Assembly (NCBI GenBank): GCA_034439655.1
Contig: JAWXAU010000004.1
Span: 1 to 39,228, forward strand
Direction: 5' to 3'
DNA from: Bacteroidota bacterium
GTDB taxonomy: Bacteria > Bacteroidota > Bacteroidia > UKL13-3
Length of the DNA: 39,228 nt
In this document: positions 19,441 through 25,041 of the stretch, in pieces
How positions within the stretch are numbered: position 1 is the stretch's first letter
How the letters are laid out: each line of letters begins with the position of its first letter
The notes under the pieces: model-generated
What the model was told of the DNA's origin: nothing
The model's database searches: none
The model's input: the letters and a program-made list of their open reading frames with translations, nothing else
Made by a program: the position numbers and the translations under genes

Positions 19441-19932
19441 TTATTGAATAGTATACTTGAATTTGAATGTAACACCGTTACTTGTAATTTCTATAACATT
19501 GCTAGTTGTACTTTGAAGAGGATTAAATGTTCCGCTTGCAATAACTTCGCTTCCCAAAACATCAACATCCACCAATTCGTATTTCCATGTTTCATTGGTA
19601 AACTTCACAGAAGTGTTTGCGGTAAGTGTTGCAGTTGTAGCATTATCGGCAGTATTGGTAGAGTAGTCAAAACCCGAGCTGCTGCTTTTTCCGAAATTTA
19701 TTTTCAAGTCTGGAGAATCGCCCGAACCATCCCATGGATTTCCATTAGCTTTGTTAGTAGACACATTGCTCACATCTATATTAGAAGCATTGCGGTATCT
19801 ACATTCAGTGTTTTTGTCGGCAGTCGCACTATAATTGTCCGCATTGGGATCAGTACAACCCGACTCTCTGCAACTTGTTAGCGAAAGAGAAAGCATGGCA
19901 AGCATGCCCATTGTTATTATTTTAATTTTCAT
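19441..19932 (-). CDS. Small secreted lipoprotein, unknown function
   Basis: The protein has 163 residues. The lipoprotein signal ends in LTSC (Cys about 21). Next comes GCTDPNADNYSATAD, a motif often seen as a short Cys-containing repeat in Bacteroidota surface proteins. The remainder has DGSGDSPDLKINFG and a beta-rich C-terminal half (WKYELVDVDVLGSEVIASG) resembling a C2-like or Ca-binding sandwich. Function is unknown; no catalytic residues stand out. A TAATTTTG box lies 25 bases upstream. It is divergent from the phosphorelay and convergent with the endonuclease. Confidence 0.7.
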   Translation of the reverse strand: MKIKIITMGMLAMLSLSLTSCRESGCTDPNADNYSATADKNTECRYRNASNIDVSNVSTNKANGNPWDGSGDSPDLKINFGKSSSSGFDYSTNTADNATTATLTANTSVKFTNETWKYELVDVDVLGSEVIASGTFNPLQSTTSNVIEITSNGVTFKFKYTIQ

Positions 19933-20150: not shown

Positions 20151-20531
20151 GTGAACATAACCAATGTAATGATTGTAGACGACGAAGAGGATGCTGGAAG
20201 CCTCTATCGGCAACAGTTTCGCAAAGAAGTGCGAAATGGGGAATTGAATCTACACATAGCCATGAGTGGTTTTGAAGCATTAGAGATGCTCGAAAAAATC
20301 AATAAAGAAAGACCACTAATTATTCTTAGCGATATAAATATGCCTGGAATGAGCGGTATTGAGTTGCTAAAAATAATAAAAGAACGGTGGCCCGACCTTC
20401 GGGTGATAATGGTAAGTGCCTATGCTGGAAACGATACTTACCAAAAAGAAGCTCACACTTACGGGGCCGATGATTTCCTGAGCAAACCCATAGATTTCGA
20501 TATCATAAAAAGCAAAATATTTGTAAGTTGA
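20151..20531 (+). CDS. Stand-alone receiver (REC) domain protein
   Basis: The 126-residue protein is a single receiver domain with no output domain. It starts with GTG at 20151. Key residues are the acidic pair in IVDDEE (D10, D11), phospho-acceptor D61 (ILSDINMPGMSG), S89 (MVSAYA) and K112 (SKPIDFD). It can take a phosphoryl group from a kinase or Hpt and act as a shuttle or sink. The segment FRKEVRNGELNLHIAMSG closely matches the N-terminal receiver of the next protein, so the two are probably tandem duplicates. The stop TGA overlaps the TTG start of the kinase gene. A near-consensus TATTCTTG lies at 20122-20129. Confidence 0.85.
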   Translation: MNITNVMIVDDEEDAGSLYRQQFRKEVRNGELNLHIAMSGFEALEMLEKINKERPLIILSDINMPGMSGIELLKIIKERWPDLRVIMVSAYAGNDTYQKEAHTYGADDFLSKPIDFDIIKSKIFVS

Positions 20532-22135
20532 GAACAACCCCGAAAATTTTATTTGTAGACGACGAGCCTGACTTGGAACTGATGATTAAGCAGAAGTTCC
20601 GCAAGCAAATTCGTGATGGCGAAATGACATTGGAGTTCGCATCAAATGGTACCGAAGCAATCGATAAACTGTTGAAGGACCCGAGTATTGACGTTGTTTT
20701 TACTGATATCAATATGCCCGTTATGGATGGACTAACCTTTCTAGCCAAGATTAAAGAACTAAAGATACCACATACCAAAGCCGTTATCGTTTCTGCCTAT
20801 GGCGATATTGACAAAATAAGGCTTGCAATGAATACCGGTGCTTTCGACTTTATAACCAAGCCCATCGACTTTGACGATTTGGAGGTAACACTTAATAAAG
20901 CCGTAGCCGAAGTATCGCTGCTGAAAGAAGCGGTTGAAGTAAAACTGCAACTGCAAGTTGCTGAAATTGAAAAAGACAAAGCCATACTAAGCGAGAAATT
21001 CAAGCAACAATTTTTGGCAAACATGAGTCACGAGATTCGTACACCTATGAATGCAATTATTGGTATGGCAAGATTGGCTATCAATACATCTCTTAACGAA
21101 ACCCAGCAAAAATATTTGGATGGCATAAGGCAGAGCGGTGAAAACCTGATGGTTATTATTAATGACATCTTAGACTTTTCTAAAATAGAAGCAGGCAAAC
21201 TAGAGTTTGAGGAAATAAACTTCAGCCCTAGACAAGTTTTGCAAACAGTGCACGATACCTTAAGATTCAAAGCCGAAGAGAAAAATCTTTTATTGCATAC
21301 CCATGCTAACGATGATGTTCCCCAGCACTTAATAGGCGACCCCGTTAGGCTTAACCAAGTTATATTAAACCTAGCTGGCAATGCAGTGAAATTTACCGCA
21401 AATGGTAGCGTCACCATCTCGCTGATACTTGCTGGCGATAAGGATGGTAAGGCAAATATTCGTGTTGAAATAAAAGATACAGGTATTGGTATTGCCGAAG
21501 ACAAAGTAGGTGCTGTATTCGATAGTTTTTCGCAGGCAAGCAGCGATACCACTCGCAAATTTGGGGGAACTGGTCTCGGGCTTTCCATCTCGAAAGAGTT
21601 GGTAGAAATGCAAGGAGGCACAATCGGTTTGACCAGCAAATTGGGAGAAGGCACCACTTTTTGGTTCGAAATTCCTTATAACGTTGGTGAAAATATTATA
21701 AAAACAAAACACGAAGAAAAAAAAATACGCAATATTGATAATATAAGAATTCTATTAGTTGAAGACAATGCCTTTAACCAGATGGTGGCAACAGACACTT
21801 TGCAAGAAATGATTCCGGGAGTTTATATCGATGTAGCTGAAAATGGCCAAGAAGCGTTGGACAAAGTATCTCAAACAGCTATACTAAGCCACATGAAATT
21901 TCCTTACCATATAGTATTGATGGATGTGCAAATGCCCATCATGGATGGTTTTGAAGCCACTAAAAAAATAAGAGAACTTGCGGGCACCCTATCACAAATT
22001 CCTATTATGGCACTTACCGCCAATGCCATAAAAGAAGAAGTAGAAAAATGTAAGGAGGCAGGCATGAATGACTTTGTAACAAAACCTTTTGACCCTGCTG
22101 TTTTATTGGAAAAAATAGCTATGCTTGTAAGTTAA
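20528..22135 (+). CDS. Soluble hybrid histidine kinase, REC-HisKA-HATPase-REC
   Basis: The protein has 535 residues and starts with TTG at 20528, overlapping the previous stop by four bases. Order: receiver 1 (about 5-122; D60 in FTDINMPVMDG, K111), a helical linker (about 123-165), HisKA with His168 (FLANMSHEIRTPMN), and HATPase with the N box (LNQVILNLAGNAVKFT), DTGIGI and GTGLGLS. Receiver 2 is at about 406-533 (D466 in LMDVQMPIMDG, K519). There is no membrane helix or PAS/GAF sensor, so input must come through receiver 1 or a partner. His168 would pass phosphate to D466 and then to the Hpt protein encoded next. Confidence 0.93.
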   Translation: MRTTPKILFVDDEPDLELMIKQKFRKQIRDGEMTLEFASNGTEAIDKLLKDPSIDVVFTDINMPVMDGLTFLAKIKELKIPHTKAVIVSAYGDIDKIRLAMNTGAFDFITKPIDFDDLEVTLNKAVAEVSLLKEAVEVKLQLQVAEIEKDKAILSEKFKQQFLANMSHEIRTPMNAIIGMARLAINTSLNETQQKYLDGIRQSGENLMVIINDILDFSKIEAGKLEFEEINFSPRQVLQTVHDTLRFKAEEKNLLLHTHANDDVPQHLIGDPVRLNQVILNLAGNAVKFTANGSVTISLILAGDKDGKANIRVEIKDTGIGIAEDKVGAVFDSFSQASSDTTRKFGGTGLGLSISKELVEMQGGTIGLTSKLGEGTTFWFEIPYNVGENIIKTKHEEKKIRNIDNIRILLVEDNAFNQMVATDTLQEMIPGVYIDVAENGQEALDKVSQTAILSHMKFPYHIVLMDVQMPIMDGFEATKKIRELAGTLSQIPIMALTANAIKEEVEKCKEAGMNDFVTKPFDPAVLLEKIAMLVS

Positions 22136-22242: not shown

Positions 22243-22587
22243 ATGGCACTTACTGATTTATCCTTCATCCAACAGTTTACGGGCAACGATCCCGCAAAAG
22301 CAAAAAAGTACATTACCATGTTTCTTACATCAGCTCCGCTGCTGGTTCACAAAATGGAAGAATCACTGGCAAGTGGCGATTTTGATACCTTACGTATCAA
22401 TGCACATAGCCTGAAACCATTGATTAGTTATATGGGCATCGCCAGTCTCGAGCAACCTATAAAAGATATTGAAAGCTATGCCGCAAGCAAATCTGATACA
22501 AATGCTCTTCCACAGATGCTTGAATCATTCAAATTACAAATTGGAAAAGCCATAGAAGAATTAAAAGTAAAAGAAGCTTCGCTATAA
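22243..22587 (+). CDS. Hpt (histidine phosphotransfer) domain protein
   Basis: The 114-residue, all-helical protein has the phospho-acceptor motif INAHSLKPLISYMG with His55 in the Hpt consensus AHxLKG/P, followed by L and the helix ASLEQPIKDIE. It would move phosphate from D466 of the hybrid kinase to another receiver. The only other receivers nearby are the lone REC upstream and the membrane-tethered REC downstream. It is 107 bases after the kinase, with a GC-rich repeat between. Confidence 0.85.
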   Translation: MALTDLSFIQQFTGNDPAKAKKYITMFLTSAPLLVHKMEESLASGDFDTLRINAHSLKPLISYMGIASLEQPIKDIESYAASKSDTNALPQMLESFKLQIGKAIEELKVKEASL

Positions 22588-22652: not shown

Positions 22653-23165
22653 ATGAAACCGATAAAAATATTTGTTGTTGACGACGACCCTATCCAATTG
22701 GAGATGATTACTGACCACTTGGGCAAATTCAAAAATTTTACTTTCCAAACTTTTGCTACCGGAGAAAAGTTACTGGATAAAATATCTGAGAAACCAGACA
22801 TCGTGATCCTAGATTACAACCTGGACAGTGTGGACAAAGATGCAATGGAGGGTATTGATGTATTGCAAGAAATAAAGAAACTTCATGAAAAGGCTGAAGT
22901 TATAATGTATAGTGGTCAAGACAGTATTGAAGTAGCTGTTGAAACCATGCGTTTCGGAGCTTTTGACTATGTGAGTAAAACCCCAAGTGCATTTTACCGA
23001 ATGGAGAATATCATACATCGCATAATCAAATTCCGTCAAATTCAGTCGGATGCGAAAAGATATAAGCTAATGGTACAAATGGCTGGATACGGAGTAGTAA
23101 TTGCCGTTGCCCTCACCATTATTCTTAAGTTGATGGGGATAAAAGTTTTTGGGTGGGTCAGTTAA
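22653..23165 (+). CDS. Receiver domain with C-terminal membrane anchor
   Basis: The 170-residue protein has an intact receiver: D10/D11 (VVDDDP), phospho-acceptor D54 (VILDYNLD), S87 (MYSGQD) and K109 (VSKTP). After the last receiver helix comes a basic, helical segment (HRIIKFRQIQSDAKRYK). A single hydrophobic helix then covers about 141-161 (VQMAGYGVVIAVALTIILKL), with a short tail IKVFGWVS. It is therefore a response regulator whose output region is replaced by a tail anchor. It is likely the end point of the relay formed by the three upstream proteins and may act on a membrane partner. The partner is unknown. Confidence 0.85.
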   Translation: MKPIKIFVVDDDPIQLEMITDHLGKFKNFTFQTFATGEKLLDKISEKPDIVILDYNLDSVDKDAMEGIDVLQEIKKLHEKAEVIMYSGQDSIEVAVETMRFGAFDYVSKTPSAFYRMENIIHRIIKFRQIQSDAKRYKLMVQMAGYGVVIAVALTIILKLMGIKVFGWVS

Positions 23166-23239: not shown

Positions 23240-24376
23240 ATGAGCAAACACGGCAAAATATTGGTAGCCATGAGTGGTGGATTAGATTCTACCGTTACCG
23301 CGGTGATGCTTCGCGAAGAAGGTTATGAAGTGGTGGGCATCACCATGAAAACGTGGGACTATGCCACATCCAATACCAGTGGTAAAGAAACAGGTTGTTG
23401 CTCGCTTGATAGTATTAATGACGCCAGAGCAATAGCGGTGCAACATGGCATTCACCACATGATTTTGGATATTAGAGACGAGTTTGGTGATTATGTAATT
23501 AATAATTTTGTGGGAGAATATATGGCCGGCCGCACCCCCAATCCTTGTGTGCTGTGCAATACGCATATAAAATGGGAAGCCTTGCTTAAGCGTGCCGACC
23601 AATTGGATTGTGAGCATATTGCTACAGGCCATTATGCAAAAACACGTTTTGAAAACGAAAGATATATAGTGTCAAAAGGATTGGACGCTGGCAAGGACCA
23701 ATCTTATGTTTTGTGGGGTTTAAGTCAGAAAAGCTTGGCAAGAACCATGTTCCCGATTGGCCATTTGCATAAAAGCCAAATTAGGGAAATGGCTTTGGAA
23801 CGTGGTTATCATGAAATGGTATCCAAGAGTGAAAGTTATGAAATTTGTTTTGTGCCCGACAATGATTACAGGGGGTTTCTTAAAAATCGCATCCCCGGAC
23901 TTGAAGCCCAAGTAGCTGGAGGGGATTTTGTTTTGAGAGATGGAACTATCGTGGGTAAACACAAAGGTTACCCGTTTTACACAGTTGGGCAAAGAAAAGG
24001 ATTGGAATTAGCTTTTGGCGAACCTTATTTTGTGCTCTCGATAGATTCAAAAACCAATACAGTGACCTTAGGCAAAAAAGAAGAATTGGAACAAAACGGT
24101 ATGTGGGTGGGTGACATCAATCTACAAAAATATAATACCATCCAAAAACCTCTGGAAACCATTACCAAGGTTCGTTATAAGGATCCTGGCACATTGGCCA
24201 CTATTAATCAAGTAGATGATTATATGGAAGTGAAATTCCACAGTAAAGTTAATGCCATAGCACCTGGTCAGTCAGCAGTGTTCTATGAAGGAGATGATGT
24301 AATAGGTGGTGGATGGATTAAATCTGCATTCGAAATAGAAAAAAATACAGCACAAAAACAAACTGAATGGGCATAA
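23240..24376 (+). CDS. mnmA: tRNA-specific 2-thiouridylase MnmA
   Basis: MnmA places sulphur on U34 of tRNA-Lys, -Glu and -Gln. With the start at 23240 (MSKHGKILVA) it has 378 residues, normal for the family. An upstream ATG at 23198 would precede the promoter box. Visible are the PP-loop SGGLDST (12-18), catalytic Cys103 in NPCVLCN and Cys203 in SYEICFVPD, plus GKDQSYVLWGLSQ and the HKGYPFYTVGQRKGL block of the tRNA-binding region. It is the first gene of an overlapping group: the lipoprotein start lies inside its last ten bases. Confidence 0.96.
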   Translation: MSKHGKILVAMSGGLDSTVTAVMLREEGYEVVGITMKTWDYATSNTSGKETGCCSLDSINDARAIAVQHGIHHMILDIRDEFGDYVINNFVGEYMAGRTPNPCVLCNTHIKWEALLKRADQLDCEHIATGHYAKTRFENERYIVSKGLDAGKDQSYVLWGLSQKSLARTMFPIGHLHKSQIREMALERGYHEMVSKSESYEICFVPDNDYRGFLKNRIPGLEAQVAGGDFVLRDGTIVGKHKGYPFYTVGQRKGLELAFGEPYFVLSIDSKTNTVTLGKKEELEQNGMWVGDINLQKYNTIQKPLETITKVRYKDPGTLATINQVDDYMEVKFHSKVNAIAPGQSAVFYEGDDVIGGGWIKSAFEIEKNTAQKQTEWA

Positions 24377-25041
24377 AGCAAAAGCATATTATATATATTG
24401 TTATTCTAATATTTGTATTTGCAGGTTGCCGTTCGAAAGATGAACCGCTTATAGAAACTGGCACCTCCCTTTATCCTGATGGTGTTGGACGAGAACTTAT
24501 ATATCAAGTGGACTCTATACGCATAGATCGATTTACTAGCAAGACCGACACTTTCAAGTTTTTTCTCCGTGAACTCATCGAATCAAAATATATAGACAAT
24601 ACTGGCAAGTCCACAAATAGAATTGTATTATATCAAAGTGTAGGAGATACAGGGCCATGGATTGTGCGTGCCGTTATTTCCAGTCAAAAAACGGCTTACG
24701 AATTATTTCGCACCGAGGATAATCAGAATATTATGAAATTGGTTTTCCCTGTTGTTTCCAATAGCCAATGGGATAGAAATAAATATAATACTATGGGGGT
24801 CGACTATGCCACCTATATCAATATTTATGAACCCCGAAAAGTAGGGAAATTTTCTTATGATTCTACTGTAACCGTTTTAATTCAAGACGATACCAATCAA
24901 ATAGAACGGCGGTATCGCAGCGAGATTTGGGGGAAAAACATAGGAATGCTTTATAAACAAACAGATACGGTCGATTATCAGCCAAGCCAGTATCCTTATG
25001 GTATTCTTTATCGCATGACCTTGATAAACCATAAGCCTTGA
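24367..25041 (+). CDS. Lipoprotein of unknown function
   Basis: The protein has 224 residues with a lipobox VFAGC (Cys about 21) after the hydrophobic stretch IIYIVILIFVFAG. The mature part contains SLYPDGVGRELIYQVDSI and a run of beta strands (NRIVLYQSVGDTG, ELFRTEDNQNIMKLVFP). No family is recognised. The start overlaps mnmA by ten bases and the subtilase begins 13 bases after its stop, so the three genes are probably cotranscribed. An envelope partner role for the subtilase is possible but unproven. Confidence 0.75.
   Translation: MGIKQKHIIYIVILIFVFAGCRSKDEPLIETGTSLYPDGVGRELIYQVDSIRIDRFTSKTDTFKFFLRELIESKYIDNTGKSTNRIVLYQSVGDTGPWIVRAVISSQKTAYELFRTEDNQNIMKLVFPVVSNSQWDRNKYNTMGVDYATYINIYEPRKVGKFSYDSTVTVLIQDDTNQIERRYRSEIWGKNIGMLYKQTDTVDYQPSQYPYGILYRMTLINHKP

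Follow-up and report, generated by a model that had tools for sequence, protein, structure and literature searches.

We analysed a 39,228-nt stretch of DNA (hereafter the window) from a Bacteroidota bacterium (assembly GCA_034439655.1, contig JAWXAU010000004.1, positions 1–39,228). A signalling module lies on its forward strand in the order REC / REC-HisKA-HATPase-REC / Hpt / REC-TM, with mnmA downstream. The last gene of the module, REC-TM, encodes an NtrC-like receiver with a predicted C-terminal transmembrane (TM) helix, recognised from Pfam, hydropathy, AlphaFold2 and a clade of 17 distinct proteins. The features are as follows.

19441–19932, − strand: small lipoprotein-like ORF in the window, no Pfam match
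20151–20531, + strand: stand-alone REC (Pfam), first gene of the module, overlapping the hybrid gene by 4 bp
20528–22135, + strand: hybrid kinase, REC-HisKA-HATPase_c-REC (Pfam), in which no sensor domain or TM segment was recognised
22243–22587, + strand: stand-alone Hpt (H55; Pfam Hpt, E 9.2e-08), 65 bp upstream of REC-TM and its predicted phosphodonor
22653–23165, + strand: REC-TM, 170 aa
22653–23018, + strand: receiver domain of REC-TM, residues 1–122 (D11, D54, S87, K109; Pfam, alignment)
23019–23069, + strand: basic linker helix, residues 123–139, running on from α5 (alignment, AlphaFold2)
23070–23135, + strand: predicted TM helix, residues 140–161 (hydropathy, clade alignment)
23136–23162, + strand: C-terminal tail, residues 162–170, GIKVFGWVS, with conserved G162 and W168 (predicted to be periplasmic)
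24367–25041, + strand: small lipoprotein-like ORF, no Pfam match, conserved beside mnmA and a subtilase gene in the same-genus genomes G001 and G002

The REC-TM open reading frame starts with ATG, and Pfam recognises Response_reg alone within it (residues 6–110, E 5.7e-19). The match to PF00072 scores 68.8 bits against a curated cut-off of 30.2, and D11/D12, D54, S87 and K109 are present, the last three being exactly where a previous reading of the sequence alone had placed them. D54, S87 and K109 are unchanged across a close alignment of five rows. Among the aligned TM-tailed receivers, D54 is found in 93/94, S or T at position 87 in 94/94 and K109 in 93/94, with the D11/D54/S87/K109 set retained in at least 92 of the 94. 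Since the active site is preserved across the TM-tailed family, these proteins are expected to be phosphorylatable receivers and not pseudo-receivers.

The C-terminus of REC-TM contains a single hydrophobic segment. Its best Kyte–Doolittle 19-mer (mean 2.4) spans residues 148–166, while on the Hessa-2005 scale the best 19-mer spans residues 140–158. No second hydrophobic segment occurs in residues 1–125 (maximum 0.44), and the 20 residues preceding the segment carry a net charge of +4. Hydropathy thus agrees with the sequence-only reading, which had described a basic stretch, a lone hydrophobic segment at about 141–161 and nine further residues, and GIKVFGWVS does follow residue 161. We compared this C-terminus with those of control ORFs from the same loci (≥150 aa with a non-hydrophobic body), of which 4/369 had a comparable end; with membrane-protein bodies allowed, the count was 37/622. 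A hydrophobic tail arising by chance was considered and rejected, given the 4/369 controls and the conservation of the tail among relatives.

Conservation of the helix along with the receiver was assessed in several searches. The first, of 58 related genomes, returned both full-length and tail-less homologues. Our survey set comprised 100 fetched stretches and the window, which together held 201 receiver-only ORFs of ≤235 aa. Of these, 95 are TM-tailed (tail 19-mer ≥1.9) and 106 are not. A few tails just short of this threshold thereby count as TM-less (L252, 1.84; L257, 1.84; L293, 1.88), and the helix of the REC-TM in L176, from the cultivable, non-pathogenic relative Chitinophaga ginsengisoli DSM 18107, is only marginal at 1.94. 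The split is no measure of prevalence, as the profile used to select the loci contained the tail. Any 19-residue tail is absent from 82 of the 106. In a tree of 196 receivers calculated without their tails, the window protein falls in a clade of 18 (SH-aLRT 93), all 18 of which (17/17 distinct proteins) carry the hydrophobic tail; no soluble receiver was found within this clade.

As these loci had been found with a tail-containing profile, the search was repeated with the receiver alone. Across 395 genomes of the class at E ≤ 1e-44, scoring up to 11 candidates per genome (so that misses are possible), 18 genomes matched and all 18 proteins were TM-tailed; 16 are clade members, and those from G073 and G458 lie outside the clade. 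In a phylum-wide sample at E ≤ 1e-40, matches came from 6/395 genomes. Two of these are G073 and the genome of the window; in the other four the open frames are 148–152 aa long. None of the latter four proteins has a TM tail, which means that soluble receivers are among the closest relatives beyond the clade. Beyond the class, two further genomes of the phylum also have TM-tailed receivers (L084, tail 2.22; L085, 2.04). The window's own genome gave 37 receiver matches; the loci of 30 of them contain 15 single-receiver ORFs of ≤235 aa, and only that of the window has a TM-like tail.

The question raised beforehand, of whether a family search would find the helix kept along with the receiver or find it absent or hydrophilic in close orthologues, can therefore be answered for the intact orthologues, in which the helix is retained throughout (17/17 distinct clade proteins and 18/18 receiver-only matches). 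The sole exception is a broken REC-TM gene in G002. Between the window and G001, dN is 0.058 for the receiver, 0.121 for linker, TM segment and tail together and 0.073 for TM segment and tail; the corresponding dN/dS ratios are only rough, since dS is near saturation (2.1–3.1).

The anatomy of REC-TM matches that of bacterial tail-anchored proteins, with one TM segment in the last 31 residues, a short C-terminal tail and no N-terminal signal-like segment. The positive charge on the receiver side of the predicted helix fits a cytoplasmic N-terminal domain. We conclude that REC-TM is very probably a membrane-anchored protein, with its insertion and topology as predicted above. The tail anchoring proposed by the sequence-only reading is accordingly borne out as regards anatomy, a conserved helix followed by a short tail, while insertion remains a prediction and the window helix is marginal on the Hessa-2005 scale. 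Its sum of +1.03 is the weakest of the 17 clade proteins (G001, +0.11; the other 15, −1.59 to −5.41), and the segment contains K159.

This marginal score and the lysine leave room for an association that is reversible or absent, in which the helix would pack within a soluble dimer or make peripheral contact with the membrane, perhaps under the control of phosphorylation; the short basic-aromatic, peripheral-looking tails of other single-domain sister receivers point the same way. Against such an arrangement, 16/17 clade proteins are more insertion-prone on the Hessa scale than the window copy, and 15/17 fall below zero. We regard it as very improbable.

Among the TM-less single-domain sister receivers, those of L095, L096, L097, L098, L102, L149, L156, L171, L172 and L189 end in short basic-aromatic stretches, for example KFKIFRKFFLFLF and GFIKRLLSIF. 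These ends resemble amphipathic membrane-binding tails and may be a peripheral counterpart of the TM-tailed design.

We examined the linker, for which the sequence-only reading had proposed a structure model, using AlphaFold2. The prediction for REC-TM (22 sequences, single chain, no membrane) has a mean pLDDT of 95.5 and shows one unbroken helix, residues 113–160, that comprises α5, the linker and the membrane segment. The orthologue in L111 (20 sequences, single chain) was predicted with a mean pLDDT of 94.2 and a corresponding helix at residues 114–161, so that α5, linker and TM segment are continuous in both models.

The nearest solved structure by sequence is the NtrC1 receiver (PDB ID: 1zy2, E 1.3e-10), which also ranked first by fold, and the sequence match to DctD covers query residues 5–154, reaching into the linker helix. 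NtrC-family receivers with an α5 linker helix (NtrC1 of Aquifex, 1zy2/1ny5; DctD, 1l5y/1qkk; NtrX) are thus the nearest solved relatives of REC-TM. In a FastTree phylogeny, one clade (support 0.90) holds 94/94 TM-tailed receivers, 27/27 that we take to be NtrC-type from a sequence motif, 48 TM-less single-domain ORFs and 4 others, and contains 0/24 hybrid-kinase receivers. Because 48/102 TM-less ORFs also belong to this clade, tails have been gained or lost repeatedly, and parsimony on the tree of 196 receivers requires at least 14 such changes. Where the NtrC family carries a Sigma-54 activation AAA+ domain and an HTH domain after the receiver, REC-TM has a membrane helix, and Pfam gives Response_reg only, which places it outside that family proper. 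Among the 25 of 63 NCBIfam matches listed, REC-TM reached no curated cut-off, the best being 57.1 bits against 600 for NtrX. We describe REC-TM as an NtrC-receiver-type response regulator with a membrane helix replacing the usual output.

We also examined how specific the sequences of the linker and tail are. Across the 17 distinct clade proteins, mean pairwise identity is 0.593 for the receiver, 0.457 for the linker, 0.316 for the membrane segment and 0.394 for the tail. A134, Y137 and G162 are invariant in 17/17, residue 138 is lysine or arginine in 17/17, and residue 145 is glycine or alanine. The linker motif A..Y[KR] is present in 17/17 clade proteins and in 7/77 other TM-tailed receivers, and [GAS]W occurs within the last five residues of 15/17 (the members in L033 and L223 lack the C-terminal tryptophan) and of 1/77, respectively. 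Conservation across residues 130–160 follows a helical periodicity (permutation p ≈ 0.003, uncorrected for the 16 combinations of region, angle and measure tried), while periodicity within the membrane part alone (residues 140–160) is not significant. Outside the window clade, tail sequences are very diverse.

These data bear on whether the helix carries a signal or only holds the receiver in place. Simple tethering of the receiver close to its target competes closely with transmission along the helix. Under that alternative, REC-TM would be a membrane-tethered counterpart of CheY, kept beside a membrane machine by an anchor, with its phosphorylated surface doing the binding and the helix and tail free of signal. 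Many receivers act through a surface, as is established for CheY, and the poorly conserved TM residues (0.316) and the diversity of tails outside the clade are what a mere anchor would produce. Set against this, the invariant A134, Y137 and G162 and the [GAS]W of 15/17 proteins are more specific than an anchor needs, and the predicted helix is unbroken from α5. We consider simple tethering unlikely. Transmission along the helix to a membrane partner is favoured on the ground that an anchor would not need linker and tail to be this conserved, and we hold it tentatively, at slightly less than an even chance, that the signal goes through the linker and TM segment and not only via a receiver surface held near the membrane.

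The genes upstream of REC-TM suggest how it may be phosphorylated. H55 is present in 13/13 aligned Hpts, and an Hpt gene lies directly upstream of REC-TM, 15 to 116 bp away, in 13/17 clade members. REC-TM is therefore encoded together with a hybrid kinase and an Hpt whose histidine is conserved, the genomic setting of a terminal receiver in an Hpt phosphorelay. The sequence-only reading had not linked the receiver to these directly upstream genes, to the unbroken helix from α5 into the membrane or to the C-terminal GW motif. It is quite likely that REC-TM receives phosphate from the adjacent Hpt. The same-genus genome G001 keeps the entire block, mnmA included. Of the four clade members without an adjacent Hpt, three are from genomes that carry a close Hpt and hybrid elsewhere, together on one contig in G652 and G733 and on different contigs in G463; the fourth, G005, has an intact REC-TM, but neither a close Hpt nor a close hybrid turned up at the level used for the other members. 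In the same-genus genome G002 (L032:8048–8806), a stop codon breaks the REC-TM frame, only 82 aa of the first REC are left, and a search for a close Hpt or hybrid orthologue found none; the module there has decayed together and is a relic.

Of the two measures of proximity to Hpt, immediate adjacency alone separates TM-tailed from TM-less receivers. An Hpt gene lies immediately upstream of 30/95 TM-tailed and 6/79 tail-less receivers of ≤160 aa (Fisher p 1.2e-4), and of 16/77 and 6/79 when the window clade is removed (p 0.022), p-values that are indicative only because the sequences are related. An Hpt within three same-strand genes was tried as a mark of the TM class and rejected, the counts being equal (59/95 TM-tailed, 64/106 TM-less).

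A large kinase gene lies ahead of REC, hybrid, Hpt and REC-TM in L230, L231 and L241. Sensor kinases in the cluster are of propeller type in L230 and L231, with Reg_prop and Y_Y_Y domains, and of NIT type in L035, on a separate branch, with NIT and HAMP domains. Two genes upstream of the module in L035 encode putative GldM- and GldN-like proteins, on which no argument here rests. Across the loci compared, no gene on the downstream side of the module appears repeatedly as a candidate partner, and for this reason the gene neighbourhood does not show what REC-TM controls.

In four loci (L036:8077–9261, L042:9235–10948, L277:8340–9403 and L281:7877–8967), two or three TM-tailed receivers follow one another in tandem, some of them with two hydrophobic segments, next to hybrid kinases or other receivers. 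The proteins of a soluble sister class, about 144 aa long, almost always end in ..KMEKELNWYMERM (L045, L083, L086–L090, L250, L254, L264, L267, L268 and others) and, in many of the stretches, adjoin a kinase fused to REC and Hpt.

REC-TM could instead serve to drain phosphate from Hpt, tuning or resetting a relay that acts in the end through a different response regulator. Receivers that work as phosphate sinks have precedents elsewhere, REC-TM has no output domain besides its helix, and related clusters often carry several receivers, both TM-tailed and soluble. The module in the window contains no DNA-binding or enzymatic response regulator, however, and a sink would have no need of the conserved tail motif or the conserved stripe along the linker. 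We judge this role improbable.

We therefore favour, with a probability of roughly 0.6, REC-TM as the last receiver in a multi-step His-Asp phosphorelay, constitutively membrane-anchored and acting on a membrane partner; the marginal score of the window helix and the lack of a recurring partner gene weigh against it. The C-terminal tail anchor would hold REC-TM permanently in the inner membrane with the receiver facing the cytoplasm. The REC and the REC-HK-REC hybrid would be fed by a sensor kinase, whose gene belongs to the cluster in several relatives and possibly lies elsewhere in the genome of the window, giving the predicted order sensor kinase, REC, hybrid, Hpt and finally D54 of REC-TM. 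Phosphorylation of D54 would change the α4-β5-α5 face, and the changed face would alter how REC-TM packs against a second REC-TM molecule or against a membrane partner, which would be the output. Such a change in packing would reach the membrane because α5 runs unbroken through the linker into it. In receiver dimers of NtrC1 and DctD, the linker helices form a coiled coil, and the dimer mechanism proposed here, with residues 130, 134, 137, 141 and 145 as the putative dimer face, builds on that arrangement. We infer the order of phosphotransfer, the dimerisation and the membrane partner, and everything downstream of REC-TM phosphorylation is likewise a prediction.

The sequence-only reading had suggested that phosphorylation governs docking to the membrane. 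This is unlikely for REC-TM itself, as an integral helix would be a constitutive anchor that phosphorylation cannot plausibly switch on and off; what should be switched is what the receiver or helix binds. Phosphorylation more likely controls binding by the anchored receiver, or the packing of two anchored receivers. A bolder form of the proposal, which is possible though we doubt that all of it will hold, has the signal of a periplasm-sensing kinase relayed through the cytoplasmic REC, hybrid and Hpt to the anchored NtrC-type receiver, where phosphorylation would pass along the 48-residue helix, change helix packing and present the conserved periplasmic GW tail to a partner. The signal would then run inside-out, from membrane to membrane, and the proteins would form a Bacteroidota class with a TM helix as output.

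Like REC-TM, single-domain phosphorelay receivers of the Spo0F/CheY type have no enzymatic or DNA-binding output domain, and REC-TM lies beside an Hpt gene. Spo0F and CheY are soluble proteins, whereas REC-TM carries a TM helix at its C-terminus, followed by a specific tail. In the open-licence PubMed Central full text searched (including PMC5847659, PMC1183210 and PMC10924467), we found no description of a TM-tailed receiver class and no example of a receiver-type tail-anchored protein; a prior description elsewhere is possible. Passages of PMC10924467, a paper on tail anchors, mention response regulators only as neighbours. No Pfam model covers the REC-TM architecture, nor does any NCBIfam model among the matches listed.

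Response regulators are normally classified by their soluble output domain. A recurrent class of tail-anchored receivers would extend the two-component repertoire of Bacteroidota by a membrane output and would offer a way into what the many hybrid-kinase/Hpt clusters in this phylum control. The linker stripe and the C-terminal GW motif point to residues worth mutating. Taken together, our analysis suggests that some bacteria may return a sensory signal to the cell membrane instead of to DNA.
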